Origin: Pandoraea iniqua
GTDB taxonomy: Bacteria > Pseudomonadota > Gammaproteobacteria > Burkholderiales > Burkholderiaceae
Direction of reading: 5' to 3'
NCBI RefSeq assembly: GCF_902459685.1
Contig: NZ_CABPSF010000002.1
Span: 744,001-808,000, forward strand
Length of the DNA: 64,000 nucleotides
The notes below the pieces were generated by a model that saw nothing but the letters and a program-made list of their open reading frames with translations, made no database searches and was not told the DNA's origin. This document shows, piece after piece, positions 22,758-42,894 of the stretch; position 1 is the stretch's first letter; each line of letters starts with the position of its first letter. The position numbers and the translations under genes are program-made.

Positions 22758-23504
22758 TCAGCGCTTGCCCAGCACCGCTGGCGACCACTTCCCCCATGCC
22801 GCGACGAAAACCGTCCCCATGGAAATGCCGAGCGCGGCACCAGCGAGCGCATCGCTCGTCCAGTGGTACGCCGACGCTATCTGCCCGAAGCCGGTCGCCG
22901 CGACGGCCAGTGCACACGGCAAGCGCAACGCGCGGTGACGCAGCGCGACGACGGTTGCGAAGGCGAGCATCACCGTCAGGTGGCCGGACGGGAACGACGC
23001 ATACGCCACACCGTCGCCGCCGAACAGCCGAAATTCGAAGACGCCGTCATGCAGATACGACGGGTTGTTGTGCGTCCATGTGTCGGGCCACGTGCGGCCG
23101 AACAGGAGTTTCAGCGCCTGCTTGACGACGCTCGCCACACCGACCGCGCCACCCGCCAGCCACAGCGTGACGAGCCAGTCGGGCAACGTGCGGCGCCAGA
23201 ACAGCACGGCGCCCAACACGATAAACACCGGCCACCCGGCGACGAACAGCGGCGAGGGCAGTTCGGCCATGTGCTGCATCCAGCGCGTGCCCTGTGTGTG
23301 CAGATGCGCGAATTCGACGATGGGCCGGTCAAGCCATGGAATGGCAACGAGCGCGAGCAACAGGCAGCCGATGGCGCTTAGCCAAGCGGCGCGCAAACTG
23401 ACGCGAGGCGCGGCCGGCGGCGAGGCGGGGGCGCTGGGCGAGTTGGGCGAGTTGGGCGGGTTAGGCGGGGTAGAGGTGGCGTGGCCGGGGGTGAATTCAG
23501 TCAT
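22758..23504 (-). CDS. PAP2 family phosphatase
   Basis: A 248-residue integral-membrane lipid phosphatase. All three PAP2 motifs are present: KLLFGRTWP (motif 1 KxxxxxxRP-like), YASFPSGHLTV (motif 2, PSGH) and SAYHWTSDALAGAALG (motif 3, SxxxHxxxD). The N terminus has a Pro/Asn/Ser repeat (PPNPPNSPNSPSAP) before TM1. It is divergent from the Mrr-like gene with a 294-base gap. Substrates may be phosphatidylglycerophosphate, undecaprenyl pyrophosphate or lipid A phosphates. Confidence 0.88.
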   Translation of the reverse strand: MTEFTPGHATSTPPNPPNSPNSPSAPASPPAAPRVSLRAAWLSAIGCLLLALVAIPWLDRPIVEFAHLHTQGTRWMQHMAELPSPLFVAGWPVFIVLGAVLFWRRTLPDWLVTLWLAGGAVGVASVVKQALKLLFGRTWPDTWTHNNPSYLHDGVFEFRLFGGDGVAYASFPSGHLTVMLAFATVVALRHRALRLPCALAVAATGFGQIASAYHWTSDALAGAALGISMGTVFVAAWGKWSPAVLGKR

Positions 23505-23798
23505 GAGGCAGGTTCGGGTAAGTCGGGCGGTAATGCAACTTCCGGGCGAAAGCCTGAGGCAGCGGCATGGCGATTTGATGACGATCAGTACGCACGCGTT
23601 GCGCTCATGACATTGTTCTGCCGCAAGGAATGGAAAGATTTTTTGCGAGATCGATGCCCATCGTCCTACAATCGTCCCCTGCATGGCGTGGGTCATGAGC
23701 GGGTCATGAGGGGCGGTGGCCAGACAGTTCAGATCTATCGTTTTCGTGCGGGTAGTTTGCCAGTCAAAACAAAATCAATAACGCATGCGGGGGCAGCA

Positions 23799-25427
23799 GT
23801 GATTCGGGGATTCAACAGCATCATCGACCGTCTGGCGCGAGACTTCTGGCGCGCCGCGCATACGCGCGAGCAGCAGCACGCGCAGTCGCAAATGCGAAGT
23901 CTGGCAGAAGTCCGTGCCGTCGAGCAGGCCCAGCGCGCTTTTGAGGAAGCGCCCATCGCCGACGTGGCCGCGCGGGAGCGGCTGCATCTGGCCCTGCGCC
24001 AAGCCGAGGCCGCCGCCGAGGGCGCCCGCGCCAAGTTCGAAGTCGCACGTCTGGAGCGCCTGCTGGCCGACGGCCTCGCGCGCGACTTGCGCATTCCGCC
24101 GGCCGATCTGCGCGCGCGCAACACGCCGCCGGTGCTCGACACCCGTCATCTGCCGAAGATTCTTGCCAAGCCCGAATGGGAGACGTTCGCGCCGGAGAAG
24201 CCCGGCCGGCTCTCGCTGGCCATGCCCGGTGCGTCGGCACGTTATGAACAGGCGGTCTCGAAGGCACGCAGCGAGTTCGTGCATGCCGAGCGTGAATACG
24301 AAGGCTCGAAGATCCGCCGTACGCAGGGCTCGATGATTCTGCAAATCGCGCAGCAAAAGGCCACCGAGGCGGCGCGGGCGGAAGCGTCTCGCCAGAACGC
24401 CGCCGTTGCCGATTTCGAAGGCGCGCTGTTGCGCGGTGAAGCGGCGGCCGTGACCGGTTACGCGCGCATCGTGCTGAGCCGCAGTCCGTATCCCGAAGCG
24501 TTCGAGCAGACGCTCGCAGCGCATTACGTCGAAAACCACAAGTTGCTCGCCATTGGCTACGACGTGCCGACGCTCGACGCTGCCGTGCCGATTGCGCTCG
24601 ACTACCGCTACGACAGCATCGAGAAGGCGCTTCAGGGTGTACCGGCCGGCGATGCGCTGCGCGCGCAGGTGTACGCCAACGCGTTACGTCAGATCCTGCT
24701 GCGTTCGCTGTACGAGTTGTTCGCGGCCGACCCGCTGCGGCATGTGAATGCCGTTGTCTTCAATATCTACGTCAACGCTGGCGACGAGCGGCTTTGCCTG
24801 GCGAGTGCGCACGTATCGCGCGCCGATTTTGCTGCGCTCGTGTTGACCGAGGGCGATGCGGCCACGCATCTGACGACGCTCGGCGCACGCGTGTCGGCAC
24901 GCCCCGAGGCGTTGCAGGCCGTCACGCCGGTGGCCGGGGTCGATATGACGCAGGCGGTCACCGATGCGGATGTGGCCGTCGATCGACGCTTCAATCTGAT
25001 GACGCTCTCGGATAAGGACTTCACGCAGGTGATGTTCCATCTGCTGCGCTCGCATGGCTTCGAAGGACCGCCGCTGCTGCCCACGGAGGACGGCATGCTG
25101 GCTTGCCGGGCGTGGGACCCGCATCCGATTTTCGGTGGCGACGTGGTCGTGCATATCCGCCGCGATACGCCCCGGCTGGGGATGAACGCCGCGCGCGCCA
25201 TGCTGGCCGAAATGCAGCAGATCGGCGCGGCGCGCGGCATGCTGATTACGACCGGGGAGTTCGACGACGGTGTGGCGGAGTTTGCACGCGACCGTCGTAT
25301 CGAACTGCTCGGCGGTCAGCATCTCGTCTTCCAGTTGAAGGAAAACGCGGGCGTCGACGCCAGTGTGGCGGCACCCGAGTCTGCCGATGCCACCGGCGCT
25401 GCCGGGGCGGCCACGTTGCCGGTGTAA
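23799..25427 (+). CDS. Coiled-coil protein with C-terminal Mrr-like restriction endonuclease domain
   Basis: A 542-residue protein. Residues about 20-230 are Ala/Glu/Arg-rich and predicted helical (REQQHAQSQMRSLAEVRAVEQAQ). The middle is an unknown alpha/beta region. The last 130 residues look like a type IV/Mrr-type nuclease fold (FTQVMFHLLRSHGFEG, FGGDVVVHIRR, GAARGMLITTGEFDDGVAEFAR, ELLGGQHL). The usual QxK catalytic lysine seems to be replaced by HIRR, so activity is uncertain. The start is the GTG at 23799 with GGGGG upstream; the longer frame gives an unlikely N terminus. Confidence 0.75.
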   Translation: MIRGFNSIIDRLARDFWRAAHTREQQHAQSQMRSLAEVRAVEQAQRAFEEAPIADVAARERLHLALRQAEAAAEGARAKFEVARLERLLADGLARDLRIPPADLRARNTPPVLDTRHLPKILAKPEWETFAPEKPGRLSLAMPGASARYEQAVSKARSEFVHAEREYEGSKIRRTQGSMILQIAQQKATEAARAEASRQNAAVADFEGALLRGEAAAVTGYARIVLSRSPYPEAFEQTLAAHYVENHKLLAIGYDVPTLDAAVPIALDYRYDSIEKALQGVPAGDALRAQVYANALRQILLRSLYELFAADPLRHVNAVVFNIYVNAGDERLCLASAHVSRADFAALVLTEGDAATHLTTLGARVSARPEALQAVTPVAGVDMTQAVTDADVAVDRRFNLMTLSDKDFTQVMFHLLRSHGFEGPPLLPTEDGMLACRAWDPHPIFGGDVVVHIRRDTPRLGMNAARAMLAEMQQIGAARGMLITTGEFDDGVAEFARDRRIELLGGQHLVFQLKENAGVDASVAAPESADATGAAGAATLPV

Positions 25428-27271: not shown

Positions 27272-28183
27272 ATGAAGCAGTCTGAACGGACGGCCACCGC
27301 AGTGCGCGCAACTCGCTTGCGCGCGATGGCCCGGCAATTGGCAACACTCGCAGTCAGTCCTCTTTTCGCGATCTCCGGCAGTGCATTCGCCGCGACGACC
27401 GCTTGCGGCGATCACTACTTCTCGGGCACCGCACCCGATATCACCAACACGTCGATGACACGGGCAGCACGCGAAGTGTGCTTCAGTGCGTTCGGCGTGA
27501 TGCACTCGGGCGTGACGCGTACGCCGCTCTGGTCGGCCGAACATCTCACACGCGACAGGCTGGCCGACGCGCGCGAGATGACCCGCGTCAACAATTTCCA
27601 CGCCGAATCGAATTTGCCCGTCGGCGAGCGTGCTGAACTGCGCGACTACCTGCGTTCGGGATACGACCGCGGGCACATGGCGCCGTCGGCGGATATGCCC
27701 GATGCGCGCGCGCAATCGGAGAGTTTTTCGCTGTCGAACATGGTGCCGCAGAACAGCGAGAACAATCGCTATCTCTGGGCCGGTATCGAGTCTAGTGTGC
27801 GGACGTTGGCAAAGGACCGTGGCGAGTTGTTCGTGATCACGGGGCCGCTCTACAAAGGGCAATCGATCACACAGATCGGCAATCGGGTGATGGTGCCCAC
27901 GCAGCTCTATAAGGTGGTCTACGACCCGAAGCGGCGACAGGCCGGCGCCTACCTTGTCGCCAACGAAGCAACCGGCGACTATTCGGTGGTGAGCGTGGCA
28001 GAACTGGAGAAGCTGGCGGGCATCGACTTCTTTCCCGGCATGCCGGCTTCGGTGAAAACCACCGCGATGCGCCTGCCGACACCCAAGGCGGCGGGCGGTG
28101 GCAAACGCAAGCGTGACCCCGAGGTGCCGTCGTACCGCGAAGTGCAGACGGTGCTCGACTTTTTGCGCACGATCATTCGCTAA
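27272..28183 (+). CDS. Secreted DNA/RNA non-specific endonuclease (NucA/EndA type)
   Basis: A 303-residue protein with a signal peptide (residues 1-44, ending AFAA) and a beta-beta-alpha-metal nuclease domain. The active-site motif DRGHMAPSADMP (His is the general base) lies near residue 133, followed by the metal asparagine in MVPQNSENNRYLW. It should degrade DNA and RNA outside the cytoplasm. The C terminus is Lys/Arg-rich. Confidence 0.93.
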   Translation: MKQSERTATAVRATRLRAMARQLATLAVSPLFAISGSAFAATTACGDHYFSGTAPDITNTSMTRAAREVCFSAFGVMHSGVTRTPLWSAEHLTRDRLADAREMTRVNNFHAESNLPVGERAELRDYLRSGYDRGHMAPSADMPDARAQSESFSLSNMVPQNSENNRYLWAGIESSVRTLAKDRGELFVITGPLYKGQSITQIGNRVMVPTQLYKVVYDPKRRQAGAYLVANEATGDYSVVSVAELEKLAGIDFFPGMPASVKTTAMRLPTPKAAGGGKRKRDPEVPSYREVQTVLDFLRTIIR

Positions 28184-31805: not shown

Positions 31806-33068
31806 TCAGAGGCGATGCGTTGTCGCCTCGAGCACTTGTACCCCCCGCATGAAGTCATCGATATCCATGGCTTCATGCGGATTGTGCGAACCGTTCGCGT
31901 TGCGCACGAACACCATCCCGCTTGGAATACCTGCATTGGCGAAGATCGCGGCGTCGTGACCGGCGCCGCTCGGCACGCGCTCTTGCGGCAGATCGAGCGC
32001 ACGGCACGCTTCGGTGAGCAGCGACGACACCTGCGCATCCATGATCGCCGGCGCGGATGCCAGCCGCCGGTCGAACACGAACTGCACGCCGCGATCGCGT
32101 TCGATGGCGCGGCATTCGGTGCGCATCAACTCATAGAACACGTCGAGCGTATCGGCGCTTTGACTGCGCACTTCGAGGCTGAAGTCCACGCGCCCCGGAA
32201 TGCGCGAGATCGCATGTTCCGCCGGATCGGTGCCGACGATGCCTGTCGTCACCACGAGATCGATACCGCGTTCCAGCAGGGCACGCCAATGTTCATCGAG
32301 CCGGGTGATGAGGTCTGCGACGGCAAACATCGCATCGTGCCGCAGCCAGCGCGGCACCGCGCCCGAGTGACCGGCTTCTCCCACGCACGACACACGGTTG
32401 TGGCGCACGTTGCCGCGAATGCCGGGCACGATGGCCACCGGCATGTCGCGGGCAATCATCACCGGGCCTTGTTCGATATGCAGTTCCAGCCACGCTTTGG
32501 CCCGCGACGCATCGAAGAGCATTGCCCCTTCGCGAATCGCATCGACGTCTGCGCCGGCCTCGGCCATGCACTCGCCGAGCGAGCGTCCATGCGTGCGATG
32601 GGGCATCGCGAGATCGGCGTCGCTCAATTTGCCGAACAGCGCACCGGACCCCATGTAAGCCTTCCCGAACCATGCGCTTTCTTCGCCGCGTAATGCGAGC
32701 ACGCGCACCGGCGTCGCCGTCGGGCGGCCGCTACGTTGTTGTTCGACGAGACACAGCAGGCCCGCAATGATGCCGGCCATGCCGTCGTAGTTGCCGCCCT
32801 GAGGTACGGAATCGAGGTGCGAGCCGATCCATGTGGCGGGCAGCTTGTCGCGTTCCCCGGCATCGCCCGGCAGGGAGAAGATCAGGTTGGCCGCGCGATC
32901 GCGCGTGACCGTCAGCCCCTGATGACCGGCCCATTCGGTCAGATACGACGCCGCAGCGTTCTCGCCCGCGCCGTAGCTGTCGCGGGAGACGCCGACACCG
33001 TCGTCGCCGAGACGGCGCAGGTCGGTAAAAAGTTGATCGGCCAGCGAGGCCAGCGCGGTAAGACTCAT
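31806..33068 (-). CDS. N-carbamoyl-L-amino acid hydrolase / Zn-dependent hydrolase (M20)
   Basis: A 420-residue M20-type hydrolase of the hydantoinase/carbamoylase branch, with GSHLDSVPQGGNYDGMAGI (first zinc site), LRGEESAWFGKAYMGS (bridging glutamate), ELHIEQGPVM and SGAGHDAAIFA near the C terminus. Enzymes of this group cleave N-carbamoyl amino acids, ureidoglycolate/allantoate or beta-ureidopropionate. It is the last gene of a four-gene operon with an importer and PyrK/PyrD-like subunits, so N-carbamoyl-aspartate (ureidosuccinate) is a good candidate substrate. Confidence 0.88.
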   Translation of the reverse strand: MSLTALASLADQLFTDLRRLGDDGVGVSRDSYGAGENAAASYLTEWAGHQGLTVTRDRAANLIFSLPGDAGERDKLPATWIGSHLDSVPQGGNYDGMAGIIAGLLCLVEQQRSGRPTATPVRVLALRGEESAWFGKAYMGSGALFGKLSDADLAMPHRTHGRSLGECMAEAGADVDAIREGAMLFDASRAKAWLELHIEQGPVMIARDMPVAIVPGIRGNVRHNRVSCVGEAGHSGAVPRWLRHDAMFAVADLITRLDEHWRALLERGIDLVVTTGIVGTDPAEHAISRIPGRVDFSLEVRSQSADTLDVFYELMRTECRAIERDRGVQFVFDRRLASAPAIMDAQVSSLLTEACRALDLPQERVPSGAGHDAAIFANAGIPSGMVFVRNANGSHNPHEAMDIDDFMRGVQVLEATTHRL

Positions 33069-33160: not shown

Positions 33161-34156
33161 TCACCCGGACTGCTGGGCAAAACGCAGCCAGCGATCGGTG
33201 AGCTGGGCGTCGAGGGCGACGGCCCCCGTGAGTGCTGCCAGTTTGTCGATCTGGTGCCGCGCGCAATACGCGGTGAGGCCGTCGACGATATGGCCCATCG
33301 CGGCCGGATCGCGAAACGATGCCGTGCCCACTTGCACGGCCGTGGCGCCCGCGAGCATGAATTCGACGGCGTCATCTGCCGTCTCGATGCCGCCGCAGCC
33401 GATGATCGGAATACGCACGGCGCGATGGCATTGATGGACGAGCCGCACGGCGAGCGGTTTGATCGCCGGGCCCGACAGGCCGCCCATGACGTTGCCGAGT
33501 TTGGGGCGGCGCGTGTGCACGTCGATGGCCATGCCGAGCACGGTGTTCCCCATGACGATGGCATCGGCCCCGGCGTCTTCCGCCGCCCGTGCGATCTGCG
33601 CAATCTGCCCGGCATTCGGCGTGAGCTTGACCCACAGCGGATGTTTCGTGCGCCGCCGGATAGCGCTCACCGCCTTGTAAGTCGTCTCGGGCAGCATGGC
33701 GAACGCCATGCCGTCCGCCTCGAGATTGGGGCACGAGATATTGGCTTCGATAGCGGCGACTTCGGGCAACGACAACCGCTCGCAGGCTTCGGCGAACGAC
33801 TCGGCGGTATCGGCCGAGACCGACACCACGACGGGCGTGTCGAATTGCGTGTACGGCGGCAGTACGTCGCGCAGATAGGCGTCGAGCCCCTTGCTCGGAA
33901 TGCCGATGGAGTTGAGCATGCCGGCGGGTGTCTCGGCCACGCGCGGCGTCGGGTTCCCCGCGCGGGTGGCGGGCGACACGCTCTTGATGACCAGCGCGCC
34001 GAGTCGATTGAGATCGAGTGCTTCACGGTACTCGATGGCGAAGCAACCCGACGCCGGCATCACTGGATTGCGAAGCGTGAGTGCGCCGATGCGAACGCTC
34101 AGATCCAGCTCGGCAAGCGTGCGTTGGTCGTCGTCGGACGCGCGCCGCGTCGTCAT
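33161..34156 (-). CDS. Dihydroorotate dehydrogenase, class 1B-like catalytic subunit
   Basis: A 331-residue TIM-barrel flavoprotein. It has the N-terminal LTLRNPVMPASGCFAIEY, the lysine-bearing ALVIKSVSP and NPTPRVAETPAGMLNSIGI, the active-site cysteine in ANISCPNLEADG and phosphate site GGIETADDAVEFMLAGATAVQVGTA. It starts 7 bases after the PyrK-like gene, so the pair forms the heterotetrameric NAD-linked class 1B enzyme. Betaproteobacteria normally use membrane PyrD (class 2) for biosynthesis, so this second type, next to a carbamoylase and an importer, points to catabolism (orotate reduction) by inference. Confidence 0.88.
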   Translation of the reverse strand: MTTRRASDDDQRTLAELDLSVRIGALTLRNPVMPASGCFAIEYREALDLNRLGALVIKSVSPATRAGNPTPRVAETPAGMLNSIGIPSKGLDAYLRDVLPPYTQFDTPVVVSVSADTAESFAEACERLSLPEVAAIEANISCPNLEADGMAFAMLPETTYKAVSAIRRRTKHPLWVKLTPNAGQIAQIARAAEDAGADAIVMGNTVLGMAIDVHTRRPKLGNVMGGLSGPAIKPLAVRLVHQCHRAVRIPIIGCGGIETADDAVEFMLAGATAVQVGTASFRDPAAMGHIVDGLTAYCARHQIDKLAALTGAVALDAQLTDRWLRFAQQSG

Positions 34157-34163
34157 TTGGAGA

Positions 34164-35018
34164 TCAGCCAAAATCCACCTCCCCAATCACATCGCGAATC
34201 GGAAACACGGGGCCTTCACGGCACACGCGCAGGAATTGCTTATCGCCGTCGCAATCGAACAGGCGCACGCACGACAGGCAAACGCCCATGCCGCACGCCA
34301 TGCGCTGTTCCATCGCCACTTCTGCAACGATCTGCGGGTGCCCGGCGACCACACGTTGCAAGAGCATCAGCAGCCGGTGCGAGCCGCAGGTGTAGACGGC
34401 GTCGTGCGGGGCGGCGCTCAGCAGGGCGCACACGCGCGCTTCTACCGCCTCGACGGACGACGAGCCGTCGCTATCGAACACGCAATGCACGTCGGCCAGC
34501 TCACGGGCCATGTCGCTGCGCAGGAACTCGTCGCGCATCAGGTCGGCCTCGCTGCGTGCCGACATCACCACAGTGAGTCGAATGCCCGCTGCGGCAGCGC
34601 GCTGCACGAGCGGTGCCATCGTGGCCAGCCCGACGCCGCGCGCCACCACCATCACACGCTGCCAGCGCGTGTCGAGCGTGAAGGTATTGCCGAGCGGGCC
34701 GACGATATCGAGCGATGCGCCTTCCGCCAGCGAGGCGAGCGCACGTGTGCCCACGCCGGTGACGTTGTAGAGAAACTCGATCGTGCCGGGCTCGGGGCCG
34801 GTGCCGTAGACGCTCATCGGGCGCAGCAAAAACGGCGCTTCCTGATCGGTCACCGGGCACTTGAGTTGATAGAACTGGCCGGGGCGCGTGGTGTCGGCAA
34901 GCGGCGCGTCGGCGTGCAGACGCAGATAGCGATAGCGGGCATTCACAGCGCGATGGGTCACCACGCGGCAGCGATGCGTCGCGACCGTAGGCGAGTGGCA
35001 GGGTGCGTCTTGAATCAT
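34164..35018 (-). CDS. Dihydroorotate dehydrogenase electron-transfer subunit, PyrK-like
   Basis: A 284-residue FAD/2Fe-2S protein: ferredoxin-reductase fold with RPGQFYQLKCP and FLLRPMSVYG (FAD site), a Rossmann part (VVARGVGLATMAPL) and the C-terminal cluster motif ACGMGVCLSCVRLF with a further cysteine in LRVCREGPVF. It carries electrons between NAD(H) and the PyrD-like subunit. The ATG at 35018 overlaps the MFS stop by 4 bases. Confidence 0.88.
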   Translation of the reverse strand: MIQDAPCHSPTVATHRCRVVTHRAVNARYRYLRLHADAPLADTTRPGQFYQLKCPVTDQEAPFLLRPMSVYGTGPEPGTIEFLYNVTGVGTRALASLAEGASLDIVGPLGNTFTLDTRWQRVMVVARGVGLATMAPLVQRAAAAGIRLTVVMSARSEADLMRDEFLRSDMARELADVHCVFDSDGSSSVEAVEARVCALLSAAPHDAVYTCGSHRLLMLLQRVVAGHPQIVAEVAMEQRMACGMGVCLSCVRLFDCDGDKQFLRVCREGPVFPIRDVIGEVDFG

Positions 35019-36271
35019 TCGAGTTCGGTGCCCTTGAGTTCGGGAATCAGAAAGCGCGTGGCGATCATGTCGAGCACGTAGAGGCTCGCGAGCAATGCGA
35101 TGGCGATCTGGAAGGAGTAGCGCACGGCGAGTGCGCCGACGACGAGAGGCCCCAGGCCGCCGATAGCGCGGCCGATGTTCCACAAGACGTTTTGTGCGGT
35201 GGCGCGTGCGGCGGTGGGATAGGCCTCGGACATGAGCGTGCCGTAGCCGCCGACCATGCCGTTCACGAACATGCCCATGAGCGCGCCGGCAAACAGCATG
35301 ACGGTCGGATCGGTCAGTTGCGCGTAGACGAGCACCATGACGACAGCGCCTGCCTGATAGAGCAGGAACGTGGGGCGGCGTCCGATGCGGTCGGCGAGCT
35401 GGCCAAATGCCCACACGCCGAACATCATTCCGACGACCGTGGCGGCGGTCCACAACCCCGATTTGGTCAGCGAAAAACCGAGCTTCTGCGAGAGGAACGT
35501 CGGCAGCCAGATCATGATCCCGTAGTAGCCGAAGTTCTGGACCGAGCACAGGATCACGATGCCCAGACTGACACGCGTGGTTTGCGCGTCTTTCACGAGC
35601 AGACGGAACGCATTCGAACGGTTGGCCCCGGCATTGCCGGTGCGGCGCACGAACACTTCCGGCTCATGCAGCTTGTTGCGAAGCACCCAAGCAACGAGCG
35701 CCGGCAGCACGCCGACGAGGAACATGCCGCGCCAGCCGATGTGGATCAGCAGCATCGGCGTGAGCAGGGCGGCAGCGAGCACGCCGGTCTGCCAGCCGAG
35801 TGCCACATACGACGACACGCGGGCGCGTTTGGCGGCCGGCCATGCTTCGGCGGCAAGTGCCATGCCGATGCCGAACTCGCCGCCAAGGCCGATGCCGGCA
35901 ATGGTGCGATAGGCCAGCAAGTCCCAGAAGCCCTGAGCAAATGCGCACAGTCCGGTGAAGACGGCAAAGAGCAGGATCGTCCACGTCAACATGCGCACGC
36001 GCCCGTAGCGATCGGAGAGGGCGCCGAACAGGATGCCGCCGGCGACCGCGCCGATGAGTGTCCATGTGACCAGCGCACCTGCCTGCCCGGGTGTGAGCGA
36101 CAGACCGGCCGTGATCGCTGGCAGCATGAAGCCGAGAATCAGCAGGTCGAATCCGTCCATCGCATAACCGATGGCGGACCCGGCGAGCGCTTTCCATGCG
36201 TAGGGCGTCACGGTGTCGGACGGCGCCGCAGCGGCGCGTTGCGAACCCGGGGTGTTCAGGTTGACTTCCAT
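35015..36271 (-). CDS. MFS transporter (AAHS/SHS-type), probable importer of the operon
   Basis: A 418-residue 12-TM permease with the acid:H+ symporter signature GYAMDGFDLLILGFMLPAI in TM1, the loop GALSDRYGRVRM, and TIAGIGLGGEFGIGMALAAE in TM4. This group imports aromatic and other organic acids. It is the first gene of the operon with the PyrK/PyrD-like subunits and the carbamoylase, and an operator palindrome lies 84 bases upstream. An organic acid such as orotate is the likely cargo; this is inference. Confidence 0.88.
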   Translation of the reverse strand: MEVNLNTPGSQRAAAAPSDTVTPYAWKALAGSAIGYAMDGFDLLILGFMLPAITAGLSLTPGQAGALVTWTLIGAVAGGILFGALSDRYGRVRMLTWTILLFAVFTGLCAFAQGFWDLLAYRTIAGIGLGGEFGIGMALAAEAWPAAKRARVSSYVALGWQTGVLAAALLTPMLLIHIGWRGMFLVGVLPALVAWVLRNKLHEPEVFVRRTGNAGANRSNAFRLLVKDAQTTRVSLGIVILCSVQNFGYYGIMIWLPTFLSQKLGFSLTKSGLWTAATVVGMMFGVWAFGQLADRIGRRPTFLLYQAGAVVMVLVYAQLTDPTVMLFAGALMGMFVNGMVGGYGTLMSEAYPTAARATAQNVLWNIGRAIGGLGPLVVGALAVRYSFQIAIALLASLYVLDMIATRFLIPELKGTELE

Positions 36272-36354: not shown

Positions 36355-36370
36355 GTCTAAATATTTAGAC
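36355..36370. promoter_or_regulatory. Operator palindrome 1, upstream of the MFS/pyrKD-like operon
   Basis: Perfect 16-base palindrome GTCTAAATATTTAGAC, 84 bases before the MFS start codon. The same sequence recurs at 36753 and a relative at 38117. A degenerate version (GGCTAAAAAAATTGTC) follows at 36376-36391. Confidence 0.75.
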
Positions 36371-36414
36371 GGATAGGCTAAAAAAATTGTCGGACAGTGC
36401 GCTGACCCGCAGAC

Positions 36415-36738
36415 TCACGCATAAACGTCGCGGGTGAACTGTGCGGCAAAATCGTTGAGCGTGGCGAGAAAGCTGGCGTCCGACGCTTCGGCCGCATCGC
36501 GCAGCTTCGTCGCATAGGCCTTGCTGTGGGCGAGAAACGCATGAAAGGTTTCGCCGTTCGTGGCAATGCCGGACTGCCGTTCCGTAAATGCCTGCGCTGC
36601 CTGAGCGAGCAACAGCAACGCGGCCGATTCACGGGTGGCGGCGCGGGAGGCATTCAGGCAGCGTGCGGCAAAGTCTTCGATGTCGGACAGGCCGACGGTG
36701 TCGCGCTGCAACCAAGCACAAGCGAGCTTCAAATCCAT
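36415..36738 (-). CDS. Hypothetical helical protein
   Basis: A 107-residue soluble protein, Ala-rich and probably all-helical (AARCLNASRAATRESAALLLLAQAAQAF), with no recognised domain. GGAG lies nine bases before the ATG at 36738, and an operator palindrome covers the zone 15-30 bases upstream, so the operator should overlap its promoter. It lies between the importer operon and the porin, all on the minus strand. Confidence 0.7.
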   Translation of the reverse strand: MDLKLACAWLQRDTVGLSDIEDFAARCLNASRAATRESAALLLLAQAAQAFTERQSGIATNGETFHAFLAHSKAYATKLRDAAEASDASFLATLNDFAAQFTRDVYA

Positions 36739-36752
36739 CACGTGCTCCATTT

Positions 36753-36768
36753 GTCTAAATATTTAGAC
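36753..36768. promoter_or_regulatory. Operator palindrome 2, upstream of the hypothetical gene
   Basis: Exact second copy of GTCTAAATATTTAGAC, 15 bases before the start codon of the gene at 36415-36738. On the minus strand a TTGCCT at 36796-36791 may be the -35 box, putting the operator over the -10 and start site. Confidence 0.75.
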
Positions 36769-36898
36769 TAAACGAACCTAAAGGGTCAGGCAAGACGAAA
36801 ATTATTGGGTGAAACCCTGATGCGAAAGACGCCGCGACGGCGCTAAACATGACGTGCACCGTCGCAGAAGAGGGCGCGCGAGGCGCCCCCGGCAAGGC

Positions 36899-37969
36899 TC
36901 AGAACTTCATCCGCAGGCCGGCACCGTAGGTCTGGCCGGTCGACAAGTCGCTCATATGGTCGTACTTGTAGGCGGCGTAAATATCGGTGCGCTTGGACAG
37001 CGGGTAGTCGTAGCCGAGTGCCCACGTGGTGCGGCGCTGGTTGTCGCCCGAGCCGTTCGAGCCGGTGTAGGCGACCGAGGCGAGCACGCTGCCGCGGCCC
37101 AGCGGCACCGAGGCGCCCAGCTGCCCCGTGTTGCTGTGGAAGTTGCCGCTGGCGGCCTGACTGGCGACCAGCATGTATTGCGCAAACAGCTTCACGACGG
37201 TGAAGTCGTACGAGAGACCGAGCTGCGCGGTGTTCTGGTTCGTCAGCCCCGTCACGCCCGGCAGTTGGGTACCGAAGTCACCCGGGGCGTTGCTGAAGTT
37301 CACGTACTGATAATTCACGGCCACGCCGAACGGGCCGTTGCCATAGGTGAGGGCAGCGCCCCACTTCTTGGCGCTGTGGTCCGTCGGGCTGTTGCCGGTC
37401 GCGTAGATGAGCGTGCCCGCCAGCCCGGCGTAGCCCGGCGACGTGTACGCAATGGCGTTGTTCCACGCCGAGTCGCCCACGACGCCTTGCGTCCCCAGAC
37501 CCTTGTAGGTGTGGAAGATCATCGGCGAGAACGTGTACGAGTTGTTGAACGGGTTGAACTGGATCGTCGCCAGATACAGCGGCGTGGTGATGCGCCCGAG
37601 CCGCAACGTGCCGGCGGTGGTGTTCGACAGGCCGACGTAGGCGTTGCGCGAGAAGAAGCTGTCGCCGGAGAAGCGGCCGTAGGTGCCGTTGTTCGGCTGG
37701 AAGTAGCTCTCGAGCACGAACAGGGCGCTGTTGCCGCCGCCCAGATCTTCGGTGCCGGCCATGCCCCAGTACGACGTGGTCATGCCGCCGCCTTGCTGCA
37801 CGGCTGCCGCTTGGCCGCCGGGGTTCTTCACCGAGCCGACGTAGGCGTCGGCCAGACCGTAGAAGCTCACACTCGATTGCGCATGGGCAGACGTCGCGAG
37901 TGCGGCCGCGCCCAATGCGGCGGCGCCAGCCACCTTCGCTACCTTTGCCACCTTGTGCCAGGTTTTCAT
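36899..37969 (-). CDS. Gram-negative porin (OmpC-like)
   Basis: A 356-residue outer-membrane trimeric porin of the Burkholderiaceae type: signal peptide with the run VAKVAKVAGAAALGAAALATSAHA, mature start QSSVSFYGLADAYVGSV, beta-strand pattern throughout, the constriction-type loop with TSYWGMAGTEDLGGGNSALF, and the C-terminal GAGLRMKF ending in the Phe recognised by the Bam complex. Tandem ATGs (37972, 37969) both follow AGAGGGA. An operator-like palindrome lies 150 bases upstream. Confidence 0.93.
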   Translation of the reverse strand: MKTWHKVAKVAKVAGAAALGAAALATSAHAQSSVSFYGLADAYVGSVKNPGGQAAAVQQGGGMTTSYWGMAGTEDLGGGNSALFVLESYFQPNNGTYGRFSGDSFFSRNAYVGLSNTTAGTLRLGRITTPLYLATIQFNPFNNSYTFSPMIFHTYKGLGTQGVVGDSAWNNAIAYTSPGYAGLAGTLIYATGNSPTDHSAKKWGAALTYGNGPFGVAVNYQYVNFSNAPGDFGTQLPGVTGLTNQNTAQLGLSYDFTVVKLFAQYMLVASQAASGNFHSNTGQLGASVPLGRGSVLASVAYTGSNGSGDNQRRTTWALGYDYPLSKRTDIYAAYKYDHMSDLSTGQTYGAGLRMKF

Positions 37970-38116
37970 CATTCCCTCTGTTATGTGTACAAATTTCTGG
38001 ACGGCGCGCAGGCTATCACTGCCGGCTCGCCCGGTCATCCCCAAAATTGCGCTGGACGTCGATCCCTACCGGCCATTCCCGTGGTGTGGGGCAGACCTGC
38101 ACGGCATCGTGCCGAT

Positions 38117-38132
38117 GTCTAAAAAAATAGAC
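38117..38132. promoter_or_regulatory. Operator palindrome 3, upstream of the porin
   Basis: GTCTAAAAAAATAGAC has the same GTCTA/TAGAC arms and spacing as the two perfect copies at 36355 and 36753, with an A-rich centre. It is in the porin-regulator intergenic region. Confidence 0.65.
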
Positions 38133-38254
38133 AATCGGAAAAATAATGGCGTGGCAGTGGCGTCACGGTGGCGTAGCGGGGGAGCAACGGCGTGGTAATG
38201 CCGATGAGATGGCGGTGCGGGGCGCGACGTCGTCACCTGCGCAGAGTGCGTCGG

Positions 38255-38260
38255 TATAAT
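38255..38260 (+). promoter_or_regulatory. Probable -10 box of the XRE regulator gene
   Basis: Consensus TATAAT 109 bases before the start codon. The matching -35 (GTCACC, 38232-38237, 17-base spacer) is weak, which would fit a modestly expressed or activated regulator gene. Confidence 0.45.
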
Positions 38261-39417: not shown

Positions 39418-39463
39418 AGTCTCCCTTGCCAAGACGACCCTTCGGTCGGATGACAAGGAGACT
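39418..39463 (+). promoter_or_regulatory. 5'-UTR hairpin that hides the ribosome binding site
   Basis: AGTCTCCCTTG (39418-39428) pairs with CAAGGAGACT (39454-39463) over ten base pairs with one bulged C, and an inner stem CGACC/GGTCG with loop CTTC sits between. The paired strand includes AAGGAG, the ribosome site of the gene starting at 39471. There is no T-run, so it is not a terminator. It could be an RNA thermometer or another translational switch. Confidence 0.6.
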
Positions 39464-39470
39464 GAATCGC

Positions 39471-41483
39471 ATGATTGAGCAAACCCCCGGTGTCGGCGCA
39501 CGGCGCGACTCACCCCCTCTGATCTCGAGCCTCGCGATGCGCGACGACGGCGCTCGCACGCTGAACAACGACCTGAGTGGCGTTGTGCAACTGGTGGCGC
39601 CGCATCGCAAGGCGTGGTCGACGTATCCGTCCCGCGCTTACCGAATGCCGGACGGCGACGTCTGCGTGCCGTTCCGTGAGTGGGCCAATCAGAACGCCGG
39701 CCGGCAAGTCAAAGCGATGGGCCTGAAGGCCGATGACGATGTGCCGGTGATGATTCGCGACCAATTGGGTGAATGGCGCGAGGCGTTCACCGGCCGCGAG
39801 ACGTCGGTCCTCGCGTTCGAGGGCGGGCGCTACGTGACGCTGTTGGACGTGCGCGCCGGCACTTGGGCGACGAAGCGCCATGCACGCGAATTCCCCGTCA
39901 CGGCGCATATCGCGCAGTTGGACGCGATACGTCGGCTGTCCGTTTTTGTGGCGGGTGTGGGCGAACTCGACAGCGAGCAGGAGGGGGGTGTCGACGCGCC
40001 TTATTTCGCGCGCATGCGAAATCATCTGGCCGACTTGCGCGATTCGGCGCTCGATATGACGACGGTCTCGTTGCGCAGCCAACTGGCATTACTGAATCGC
40101 GAACTCACCGAGGTGAGGACGCTCAACGAACTGACCGCCGCGGCACAGCCGGAGCGTACGAGCGGGGGGGAGAGTGTCCCCCTGCGATTGGCCCGGCGAG
40201 GCGACAACTTTGTACTCAAGCCGGCGGCAACGCATTCCGTTTTTTCGGATAAACAAAAGCGCGCACGCACGGAGACCGCCAGTCTTGCGTTGTTGCTGGG
40301 TCTGCCCGCATCGACGCCGGTGACGCTCGATGTGCTGCGTTCGCGCGGCTTCTGCGGCGGGAATGGCGACGGCCCGCAATGGTTGCAGGCACGCGAGGCG
40401 GCGCTGGTCGGCTGGCGCGAGGAGAGCGAAGCCGTGCTCGAGGGGATCGAGAAAATGCGCGCCGGCGGAGGTGTCGACAGCAGTCCCAATCTGGTACCGG
40501 ACGACGCCATGGTGGAGGACAACGTGATCGAGGCTCCTGCGCCCGTGGCGCTACGCGAGGACATCGTGACGGTGCATCGGGCAGACGACGAACCTGAGGC
40601 CGAGGCCGAGGCCGGCCCGCATCGGCAAAGCGGTGCCGCCCGTCATCGCGAGGGTTCGACGCCGGTGGCCGGCGGTGCTCGCACACGCAAGCCGGCGGCA
40701 CAGCGCTCGGCGGCGTCTCGGGCGGCACGCCGGCAGACGATCGCGATGTCGGGCTTGCCTAAAATGGGCGCACCCGAAGCGGATCCGGCCTCGCGGCAAC
40801 CCCAGTCATCGCGCCTATCCCGCGTATCGCGGCCCAAGTCCCCACCCCCGCCGCCGCCGCCCAGATCGCTGCCGCCATCGGACGACGAGTCGCCGGCCGT
40901 CGCGCCAACCGCGCGGCAACCGCTCAGACGGGATAAATCATCGGTCAGATATCTCTGTGATCTCCTGTCGGGCGACTGGAAAACCGGGGGCGCCCACGCG
41001 CGGGCGCATGCGCAGGCACTCAAACGCTTTCCGGAGGGAGATAGCACTGAACGGGAGACCAGAGACCGGGTGCAAGGCGTTGCGCACACGGCAGCCGAGG
41101 CCAATGCGCTGGCCAGCGACAGAGCCCCTTATGGTCCGTTCGCCACCATGATCGACAAGCACTACCGGGCGAGCGATGAGGTGGTTTATGAAATGCTGAG
41201 CCGACTGTTGGCGTTGCACGCCTGGTTGGATAAATACTTTCTGCGCTGCGACGCGAACGATCAGCTCTTCCAATGTGGGCGGGACCGGATGTGGCTCGAC
41301 TTGTATTTCGATGCCGAAGCGGCGATGACAAAAGACGTCTCGATGGCTGAAGTCGACGAGATCATGTTGCGTGCTGCCGAGGCGATCGATCCCGCCCGCA
41401 CGATGTGGGACGCCTTCACGGAGTGCGAATCGAAGCTGCCCGATGACGAGTTTTCCAAACTCTGGCCGTCTACGCGCTTGTGA
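39471..41483 (+). CDS. Large hypothetical protein A of a tandem pair (effector-like)
   Basis: A 670-residue protein with no signal peptide or TM. Residues 1-230 are an unknown folded-looking part; about 233-294 is a domain shared with the downstream protein (PLRLARRGDNFVLKPAATHSVFSDKQK and LLLGLPASTPVTL); 380-500 is a low-complexity Arg/Pro/Ser linker with a run of seven prolines; the last 170 residues are helical. The modular layout, disordered linker and duplicated partner look like a secreted effector or toxin, but no secretion signal or system is visible here. Starts at 39471 after AAGGAG; 39426 and 39450 are in-frame alternatives. Confidence 0.75.
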   Translation: MIEQTPGVGARRDSPPLISSLAMRDDGARTLNNDLSGVVQLVAPHRKAWSTYPSRAYRMPDGDVCVPFREWANQNAGRQVKAMGLKADDDVPVMIRDQLGEWREAFTGRETSVLAFEGGRYVTLLDVRAGTWATKRHAREFPVTAHIAQLDAIRRLSVFVAGVGELDSEQEGGVDAPYFARMRNHLADLRDSALDMTTVSLRSQLALLNRELTEVRTLNELTAAAQPERTSGGESVPLRLARRGDNFVLKPAATHSVFSDKQKRARTETASLALLLGLPASTPVTLDVLRSRGFCGGNGDGPQWLQAREAALVGWREESEAVLEGIEKMRAGGGVDSSPNLVPDDAMVEDNVIEAPAPVALREDIVTVHRADDEPEAEAEAGPHRQSGAARHREGSTPVAGGARTRKPAAQRSAASRAARRQTIAMSGLPKMGAPEADPASRQPQSSRLSRVSRPKSPPPPPPPRSLPPSDDESPAVAPTARQPLRRDKSSVRYLCDLLSGDWKTGGAHARAHAQALKRFPEGDSTERETRDRVQGVAHTAAEANALASDRAPYGPFATMIDKHYRASDEVVYEMLSRLLALHAWLDKYFLRCDANDQLFQCGRDRMWLDLYFDAEAAMTKDVSMAEVDEIMLRAAEAIDPARTMWDAFTECESKLPDDEFSKLWPSTRL

Positions 41484-41668
41484 TCCGTGGGGGGGGCGTG
41501 CGCGTGATGTTGCCCGGCGTCGTCCTGCTTGTTCTGCATGGCGCTTGGGCAATGCCCCCTTGCGGGGCGTCTGCGCAACTGACGCCCCGTTTTCCAAAAT
41601 CGCTCCCTCACAATCGACATAGCCTTGCGCGAGGTGGCAAGCCCGTCGGTTTGCCCGCGTGGAGTTGA
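41480..41668 (+). CDS. Possible small exported protein between the tandem pair
   Basis: A 62-codon frame whose GTG overlaps the stop of protein A (GTGA) and which ends just before protein B starts. From the internal ATG at 41507 it reads like a signal peptide (MLPGVVLLVLHGAWAMPPCG). The position suggests coupling, but there is no strong ribosome site and the frame may be chance. Confidence 0.3.
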   Translation: MIRGGGVRVMLPGVVLLVLHGAWAMPPCGASAQLTPRFPKSLPHNRHSLARGGKPVGLPAWS

Positions 41669-41673
41669 GCGAT

Positions 41674-42894
41674 ATGACGAATAGTGTGAGGGGCATGCCG
41701 GGGCCCGTTCTGCCGGCGAGTGAGCCGCTGGGGCGTGTACCGGGAGGTAGCGATCGCCGCGCGATGGGCAGGGCAGTGTTCTCGGAGAACTTCCGTTCGG
41801 CAAGTGCAACGTCGACGGAACGTCCGAAATACGCGTCCAACGCTTCGCGGCCGTCGTTGAACACGGAAAGCGGCGGGGCCGGGGCCGCGGTCTATCGCAA
41901 AGCGCTAGGAGGGGTAGTGGCGTCGACGGATATGTCGGCCCGCACGGCGCGCCACCTCCGTTTTGCCGACGCGTTGCGGCTGCACAAATTGCCGCTTCCC
42001 CCGTCATCGGGGCATGCCGCGAAATGGGGGTTGGAAACGCCGCAATCGACGTCCGCTATCGGCAAGTGGGCGCTCGCCATGCAAGACCATGCGCACGACA
42101 GCACCGGTTGGATACGAGTGCCGCAAGGCCGGTCGGCCGCTGCGTCCGGCACGTTCACAAAGGTGAGGGTCAATCCCGTGTCGGTGGGCGTCGATGGACT
42201 CGACCGTCAAATGGACGCCCTCGTGACGCTATGTGCCCGGTTGCAGACAGCCATGCCGGTGTCGTCTGGCGGCGGTGCGGATCGCCACCTCAAGGCATCG
42301 CTGCGTCTCGTTGGGGAAATGGTCTGGCATACCCGGCAGGCACTGTCCGACGCGGCGGCCGAAATTACCACGCAGATGAAAGCGCTGACGGGCGTGCAGG
42401 CCTCGACGCAGTTTCCGCCGGCGTTGTGCGGCACGGAAACGCCGTTGCGCATCGTCAGGGAGGGCCGAGATTATTTTCTGAAACCCGCCGCGAGTCACTC
42501 CTTGTTTTCCGTCAAGCAGAAGGTCGCGCGCGTTCAGGCGGAGCAACTTGCCGTACTGGTCGGACTGCCGGCCGAGACGCCGGTCACGTTGAGGCATTTG
42601 CGACACACGCGCCCCAGTGCGCACTCCAATGCGTCGAGCCCGTCGCGCGATGCCCATCAGGTTGAACGGCCACGCGGCGCCGGATTTCTCGAAGATCGTC
42701 TCGCTCTGCTAGGAGACCGGTTGCAAACGGTCAACGGGCATTTGCAGACGCTCGACACCCTCAGTCGCCCAGCCGGCGCTCGCCTGCCTGCATTTCCCGA
42801 TGACTTTGCCAGCGCGTCGGCAGCTACCGCGTCCGGAGCGCGCGGCGATGTCATCCATCGCCGTGTCGTCATGTCCGCTTGGGACCGCTCTTGA
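41674..42894 (+). CDS. Hypothetical protein B of a tandem pair (effector-like)
   Basis: A 406-residue soluble protein. The first 90 residues are Ser/Arg/Ala-rich and probably disordered; residues about 180-250 are helical; 252-313 carry the domain shared with protein A (PLRIVREGRDYFLKPAASHSLFSVKQK and LAVLVGLPAETPVTL), about 33 of 56 aligned residues identical by eye; the C terminus is again low-complexity. GGAG lies nine bases before the ATG at 41674. It ends at a strong terminator, so A and B probably share a transcript. Confidence 0.75.
   Translation: MTNSVRGMPGPVLPASEPLGRVPGGSDRRAMGRAVFSENFRSASATSTERPKYASNASRPSLNTESGGAGAAVYRKALGGVVASTDMSARTARHLRFADALRLHKLPLPPSSGHAAKWGLETPQSTSAIGKWALAMQDHAHDSTGWIRVPQGRSAAASGTFTKVRVNPVSVGVDGLDRQMDALVTLCARLQTAMPVSSGGGADRHLKASLRLVGEMVWHTRQALSDAAAEITTQMKALTGVQASTQFPPALCGTETPLRIVREGRDYFLKPAASHSLFSVKQKVARVQAEQLAVLVGLPAETPVTLRHLRHTRPSAHSNASSPSRDAHQVERPRGAGFLEDRLALLGDRLQTVNGHLQTLDTLSRPAGARLPAFPDDFASASAATASGARGDVIHRRVVMSAWDRS

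Follow-up and report, generated by a model that had tools for sequence, protein, structure and literature searches.

The 64,000-nucleotide stretch of Pandoraea iniqua DNA analysed here (the window) carries a cluster of genes for a porin, a 107-aa protein, an MFS carrier, a PyrK-like electron-transfer subunit, a PyrD dihydroorotate dehydrogenase and a hydantoinase/carbamoylase-family amidase, all on the reverse strand, and a divergent gene for an XRE-type regulator (Table 1). Three short palindromes lie among these genes, and their positions as given in a first-pass annotation of the same DNA were all exact.

Table 1. Genes, putative operators and putative promoter elements at the XRE locus (positions in the window)
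Feature	Position	Strand	Sequence	Remarks
Hydantoinase/carbamoylase-family amidase	31806..33068	-		candidate N-carbamoyl-aspartate hydrolase
PyrD dihydroorotate dehydrogenase	33161..34186	-		class 1 by family model; active-site stretch NISCPN
PyrK-like dihydroorotate dehydrogenase electron-transfer subunit	34164..35018	-		below NCBIfam cut-offs
MFS carrier	35015..36271	-		nearest NCBIfam aromatic acid/H+ symport family, 348 bits, below the cut-off of 419
Operator 1 (putative)	36355..36370	.	GTCTAAATATTTAGAC	83 nt 5' of MFS gene
107-aa protein (u111)	36415..36738	-		no family; start at 36738
Operator 2 (putative)	36753..36768	.	GTCTAAATATTTAGAC	over putative -10 of 107-aa gene
Putative -10 of 107-aa gene	36765..36770	-	TAGTCT	overlaps operator 2
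Putative -35 of 107-aa gene	36788..36793	-	TTGCCT	17 nt from -10; unflagged by consensus scan
Porin (Porin_4)	36899..37972	-		Pfam
Putative porin -10	38106..38111	-	CACGAT	17 nt from -35
Operator 3 (putative)	38117..38132	.	GTCTAAAAAAATAGAC	over putative porin -35
Putative porin -35	38129..38134	-	TTGTCT	overlaps operator 3; unflagged by consensus scan
Putative XRE-gene -10	38255..38260	+	TATAAT	kept in 12 aligned Pandoraea loci; carries no operator
XRE regulator, 304 aa	38369..39283	+		N-terminal Cro/C1-type HTH and ~200-aa C-terminal domain

The N-terminus of the XRE protein matched HTH_31, HTH_3 and HTH_26, all above the Pfam cut-off, and the NCBIfam PRK08154 match spans residues 18-97 only. 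No confident Pfam family was found for the C-terminal domain (~200 aa), and a DUF5753 match in the XRE family is marginal (best E 0.1, in two of 19 members). The 107-aa protein gave no Pfam or NCBIfam family, no match to DUF397 and nothing usable from the PDB. The first-pass annotation had placed a palindrome upstream of this gene, which holds; its start was corrected and is most likely at 36738 (GGAG followed by ATG, kept in relatives), 14 nt from the end of site 2. The distance from site 3 is 144 nt to the porin gene and 236 nt to the XRE gene. On the 3' side of the XRE gene two ORFs (39426-41483 and 41659-42894) share similar stretches, by eye, and have no Pfam match; the former, where found in other Pandoraea loci, is only 26-49% identical, and judged by their sequences the two are fast-changing proteins. 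At lower coordinates than the cluster, 23481-25427 and 27272-28183 encode an Mrr-type restriction endonuclease domain protein and a DNA/RNA non-specific endonuclease.

For the enzymes, the class 1 model gave PyrD 371 bits vs 132 bits for PreA, and from the PyrK partner encoded next door we infer that it belongs to class 1B. A separate class 2 PyrD is encoded elsewhere in the genome, apart from the class 1 PyrD and PyrK-like pair of the cluster. Dihydroorotase was found in the cluster at none of 18 named Pandoraea loci; in the P. iniqua genome PyrC, the sole match to the query used, is located on another contig. That the carbamoylase hydrolyses carbamoyl-aspartate and that the MFS protein carries orotate are guesses at the family level. 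The cluster probably serves uptake of orotate and its use, reductively to aspartate, an assignment made because the clusters of relatives add pyrC, orotate phosphoribosyltransferase and pyrF.

The exact pattern GTCTA-N6-TAGAC occurs three times in the window, compared to a shuffle mean of 0.02 and with three or more copies in none of 100 shuffles; when up to two mismatches are allowed there is no excess (seven matches vs a chance mean of 6.9). In the whole 6.34 Mb genome the exact pattern was found at four places, three of them within 1.8 kb at the XRE locus (two places for a reversed control pattern). Many unrelated copies, which the first-pass annotation had named as evidence against a regulon, were not found. 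With the spacer restricted to A/T (GTCTA-W6-TAGAC) the three window sites are the only exact copies in the genome, where independent bases predict 0.008; allowing up to two mismatches gave five places genome-wide, the three exact sites and two with two mismatches elsewhere, vs nine for the control. The fourth N6 place, GTCTAGTCGTATAGAC (C1:782950-782965; L001:1501-1516), has the spacer GTCGTA and is flanked by ORFs that, by eye, resemble phnG and a GntR/PhnF-type regulator gene; identical 16-base copies are present in most Pandoraea genomes among the matches listed. We set this place aside as a regulon member and treat it as unrelated, on account of the G and C in its spacer and of the adjoining ORF, GntR-like by eye; possibly it is an operator of that GntR/PhnF-like regulator.

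Where the sites lie relative to promoter-like sequences was surveyed for 26 representative gene-facing sites, chosen by hand and some of them related. In thirteen of these, TA immediately precedes the site and TTG stands exactly 25 nt ahead of GTCTA (TTG at other offsets averages 0.24). The resulting layout, TTGNNN-N17-TAGTCT (= TTG-N20-TAGTCT), places the putative -10 under the operator, and TTG extends to TTGC in 12 of the 13. Specifically, four belong to the small gene (Pandoraea, Burkholderia and Paraburkholderia), two to a Rieske oxygenase gene, one to the remnant of that gene at locus L112, and the remaining six to the MFS gene in further genomes that are Paraburkholderia-like or Cupriavidus-like. 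In a second layout the operator covers a TTGTCT -35, with CACGAT or CATGAT as -10 at 17 nt; both the porin promoter of Pandoraea and the promoters of the small gene at L082, L111 and L118 have it. Neither layout fits the porin sites of Burkholderia/Paraburkholderia, and site 1 has no clear promoter beneath it and does not clearly fit either. A putative overlap of operator and core promoter would fit sites 2 and 3 and 13 of the 26 chosen sites, and not site 1, and a strict consensus promoter scan of the window reported none of these putative promoters, the hexamers of which match seven of 12 positions.

Within the genus, near full-length XRE orthologues are present in 28 of 32 Pandoraea genomes, and 15 of 18 named loci retain the cluster together with the full set of three sites (no more than one mismatch). 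The first-pass annotation had named missing conservation beside orthologous genes as evidence against a regulon; the comparison of loci showed the opposite. Across the 15 named loci plus the window (16 loci), the half-site columns of site 1 (flanks 0.65) and all 16 columns of site 2 are invariant. The mean majority in the half-site columns of sites 1, 2 and 3 is 100%, 100% and 95%, vs 65%, 87% and 80% in the 30-nt flanks; the best conserved operator is that in the promoter of the small gene. In P. cepalis, P. eparura and P. terrae the XRE protein is full-length and its recognition helix nearly unchanged, and neither the cluster nor a site (at most one mismatch) was found at the XRE locus; the genomes of the three have no class 1B pyrD at E 1e-20. 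In two of these genomes (G011 and G028) a one-mismatch site is present elsewhere, at one place each.

The distribution of the sites was also followed over 398 genomes of the family, in which an XRE match at E <1e-120 was counted as close and one at E 1e-120 to 1e-30 as weaker. A close XRE is present in 41 genomes, the exact GTCTA-W6-TAGAC in 40 and both in 35, i.e. the motif is found in 35/41 genomes with a close XRE vs 5/357 without (Fisher 1e-38, a value inflated by kinship). Outside Pandoraea the numbers are 10/13 vs 5/353 (Fisher 8e-14, likewise inflated by kinship). Six of the 41 genomes with a close XRE lack the exact motif, among them G063 and G213 with one-mismatch sites at the XRE locus. 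None of 18 genomes with a weaker XRE has the exact motif, and in four fetched Cupriavidus-like genomes of this kind the MFS promoter carries degenerate sites. When mapped on a 45-row XRE tree, the character "site within ~3 kb" (30 rows) requires five changes vs 12.8 when shuffled, a difference that near-copies help. Comparison supports the first-pass interpretation of an XRE regulon, the sites following the XRE gene over the 398 genomes, with exceptions.

The gene content around the regulator varies. The XRE gene, the small protein and one or more sites occur at all seven named Burkholderia/Paraburkholderia loci, six of which have the porin, MFS, pyrK, pyrD and carbamoylase genes as well. Two genomes have the XRE gene and an exact site and no class 1B pyrD genome-wide (G121, locus L117; G337, locus L120), and G213 (L112) has the XRE gene, a one-mismatch site and no class 1B pyrD, with one weak match at 34%. 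L119 is a copy of the cluster with sites and no adjoining XRE, the one XRE match of its genome being at L118; L080 has only the XRE and small genes in the stretch examined. No such site was found in the stretches fetched for L114 and L122 (XRE identity 58-59%) and L124-L126 (~33%), and pyrD is absent from the stretch in eight of 16 family-level XRE loci examined. At L113 (8516-10742) two XRE paralogues are encoded close together, a Pandoraea-type (67%) and a Cupriavidus-type protein (50%).

In Burkholderia/Paraburkholderia an additional site is present upstream of a Rieske oxygenase gene (L076, L078, L079, L083, L085 and L127), and at L127 a gene for a DASS-type carrier follows just past it. 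A DASS-type gene is also divergent from the XRE gene at L117, with a site between. The predicted extended regulon comprises the Rieske oxygenase and, probably, the DASS carrier. At L112 (10700-11060) the Rieske gene has, by eye, shrunk to a short remnant, with the promoter-operator kept and a DASS-type gene next to it. An SLOG cluster 4 (LDcluster4) gene is divergent from the Burkholderia Rieske gene at L078 (1984-2544) and lies beside the XRE gene in L112. Moreover, the PyrC gene adjoins the carbamoylase gene in L076, L083, L082 and seven fetched family genomes (L111, L113, L115, L116, L118, L121 and L123), and an aspartate ammonia-lyase gene (AspA) adjoins that of PyrC in L082 and in the same seven.

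In a search at the order level, the XRE gene lies by pyrK and pyrD in all eight loci fetched (of 13 non-window matches), six of which have pyrC. A plasmid collection gave 73 records with an XRE homologue of <60% identity, 53 of them from Klebsiella; among 11 records fetched for variety, one of them Klebsiella, pyrK, pyrD and a hydrolase gene are present in ten, including a Pseudomonas putida plasmid, and absent from a Proteus record (L196). The XRE gene is thus found beside pyrDK in alpha-, beta- and gammaproteobacteria, including on Klebsiella plasmids. The Klebsiella IncFIB plasmid NZ_CP050823.1 (L191; 55826-70692) encodes an MFS carrier, a PyrK-like protein, PyrD, a Zn-hydrolase, PyrC, the XRE protein and a 108-aa protein, and this orotate-type cluster adjoins lacZY. 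The Variovorax cluster adds orotate phosphoribosyltransferase or a related enzyme, those of Nitratireductor and Paracoccus a TRAP carrier and orotate phosphoribosyltransferase (PyrE), and that of Agrobacterium pyrF. In these plasmid clusters the sites drift, the 16-bp geometry being kept where they were found (GTATCTATTTTGATAC in Klebsiella, ATATCTTTTTTGATAC in Variovorax and GTCTAAATATTTAGAT in P. putida); none was seen in the fetched alphaproteobacterial loci. The recognition helix reads SRAA in the XRE proteins of Pandoraea, Burkholderia and Cupriavidus, with half-sites TAGAC or TAGAT, and SRAV in those of Klebsiella and Variovorax, with half-sites like GATAC. We do not claim a clean covariation of operator and helix, as half-sites of both kinds accompany SRAA on the Pseudomonas plasmid.

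The small protein is present in 25 of the 32 Pandoraea genomes, the same 25 that have the exact A/T-spacer motif, and among the 38 genomes that encode it an XRE match (E <=1e-30) is present in 37. In the Cupriavidus-like and Klebsiella-plasmid clusters a 108-aa protein is encoded directly after the XRE gene, and in Variovorax one gene further on. Homology between the 107-aa and 108-aa proteins is suggestive only (hhalign probability 1.8%; profile E-values of 0.023, 0.044 and 0.12 for three of the latter in a 10-sequence set). As a speculative extension, which we rate as rather doubtful, the XRE protein and the ~107-residue protein might form a new two-protein orotate sensor, in which the small protein tunes or releases the repressor and the pair governs a mobile locus for orotate uptake and its reductive conversion to aspartate in proteobacteria of three classes.

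The three sites are very likely operators of the adjoining XRE repressor, as predicted from the comparisons above. The two GTCTA half-sites are 11 bp apart with the A/T-rich 6-bp centre between them, and an XRE dimer would contact both; once bound, it would keep RNA polymerase from the promoters of three units, namely the MFS-pyrK-pyrD-carbamoylase operon, the gene for the 107-aa protein and that for the porin. The repressor itself would be made constantly, because the promoter-like sequence of its gene bears no operator. Release of the repressor would follow when an inducer, in the most likely case orotate or a downstream intermediate, binds to the C-terminal domain; the porin and the MFS carrier would bring orotate in and PyrK/PyrD would reduce it to dihydroorotate. 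Dihydroorotase (PyrC encoded elsewhere here, PyrC of the cluster in relatives) would open dihydroorotate to N-carbamoyl-aspartate, and the carbamoylase would convert the latter to aspartate and ammonia. XRE binding to the sites, the sign of control (repression), the inducer and the substrate are what we infer, and we regard the explanation as a whole, repression through the palindromes, an orotate or orotate-derived inducer and reductive use of orotate, as probably correct.

Several other readings of the same data were weighed. Short sequences do recur by chance in A/T-rich promoters, and the palindromes could in principle be a non-regulatory repeat; this has a negligible probability and is rejected on the rarity of the pattern in the window and in the genome and on the column conservation within Pandoraea, to which the link to the XRE gene adds. 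Assignment of the sites to a different protein, e.g. a GntR/HutC-type, PhnF-like regulator (named by eye) at the fourth place, could draw on the recurrence of GTCTAGTCGTATAGAC between phnG-like and GntR-like ORFs in most Pandoraea among the matches listed, and on the three Pandoraea genomes that have the XRE gene and no sites at its locus. We consider it very improbable, however, since the spacer of GTCTAGTCGTATAGAC differs and the A/T-spacer motif follows the XRE gene outside Pandoraea; moreover, in a Pfam scan of 27 window ORFs the only regulator domain besides the XRE is LysR-type, ~11 kb away, and no GntR-type regulator gene was found beside the three sites.

If the XRE protein is the regulator, it may act as an activator when loaded with its ligand, or do both, and the position of site 1 and of several porin sites off any recognisable -10 or -35 would agree with this. 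The best conserved sites, however, overlap a putative -10 or -35 at fixed spacing, where a bound protein normally blocks polymerase, and we therefore find activation unlikely. A similarly low probability is given to the cluster acting on another carbamoyl or dihydropyrimidine compound, such as uracil or hydantoins, in place of orotate. Carbamoylases and relatives of dihydroorotate dehydrogenase act on several substrates, and the Rieske oxygenase of Burkholderia/Paraburkholderia and the DASS gene of L127 suggest a further substrate, but the PyrD scores favour class 1 over PreA, and the clusters of relatives also encode dihydroorotase, orotate phosphoribosyltransferase or OMP decarboxylase.

With repression by the XRE protein as the preferred reading, the type of circuit is already known. 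BzdR is an XRE-type repressor of a single catabolic operon and shares with the present regulator a Cro/C1-type HTH, a C-terminal domain and local control of a degradation operon; here the PRK08154 match ends with the HTH, the operator is GTCTA-W6-TAGAC and the pathway is another. The 434 repressor recognises a palindromic operator with a 6-bp centre, which resembles the geometry of the present sites, and its HTH fold is shared, as is that of DdrO, a PDB match by sequence; in contrast to these lambdoid 434/DdrO systems, the window XRE adjoins catabolic genes and no phage or SOS switch. Streptomyces XRE-DUF397 pairs reportedly likewise consist of an XRE regulator and a small, conserved protein that is encoded close by, and the present pair differs in that the 107-aa protein lacks a DUF397 match and the DUF5753 match of the XRE protein is marginal (E 0.1). 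Clostridium oroticum breaks orotate down reductively via dihydroorotate and carbamoyl-aspartate to aspartate, the same steps as those proposed here; the present system differs in its proteobacterial hosts, the PyrK-PyrD pair, the porin, the MFS carrier and the adjoining XRE regulator. No paper on the regulator, the operator or the regulon was found in searches of open-licence PubMed Central papers.

Our analysis draws attention to the uncharacterised small protein that accompanies the regulator, and it makes of an anonymous XRE family, the C-terminal domain of which is unassigned, a repressor that can be tested, that probably responds to orotate, and for which operator and regulon are defined and the host range is wide. 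Finally, the ability to use orotate is predicted for Pandoraea, Burkholderia, Cupriavidus and Variovorax and for bacteria that carry certain Klebsiella plasmids.
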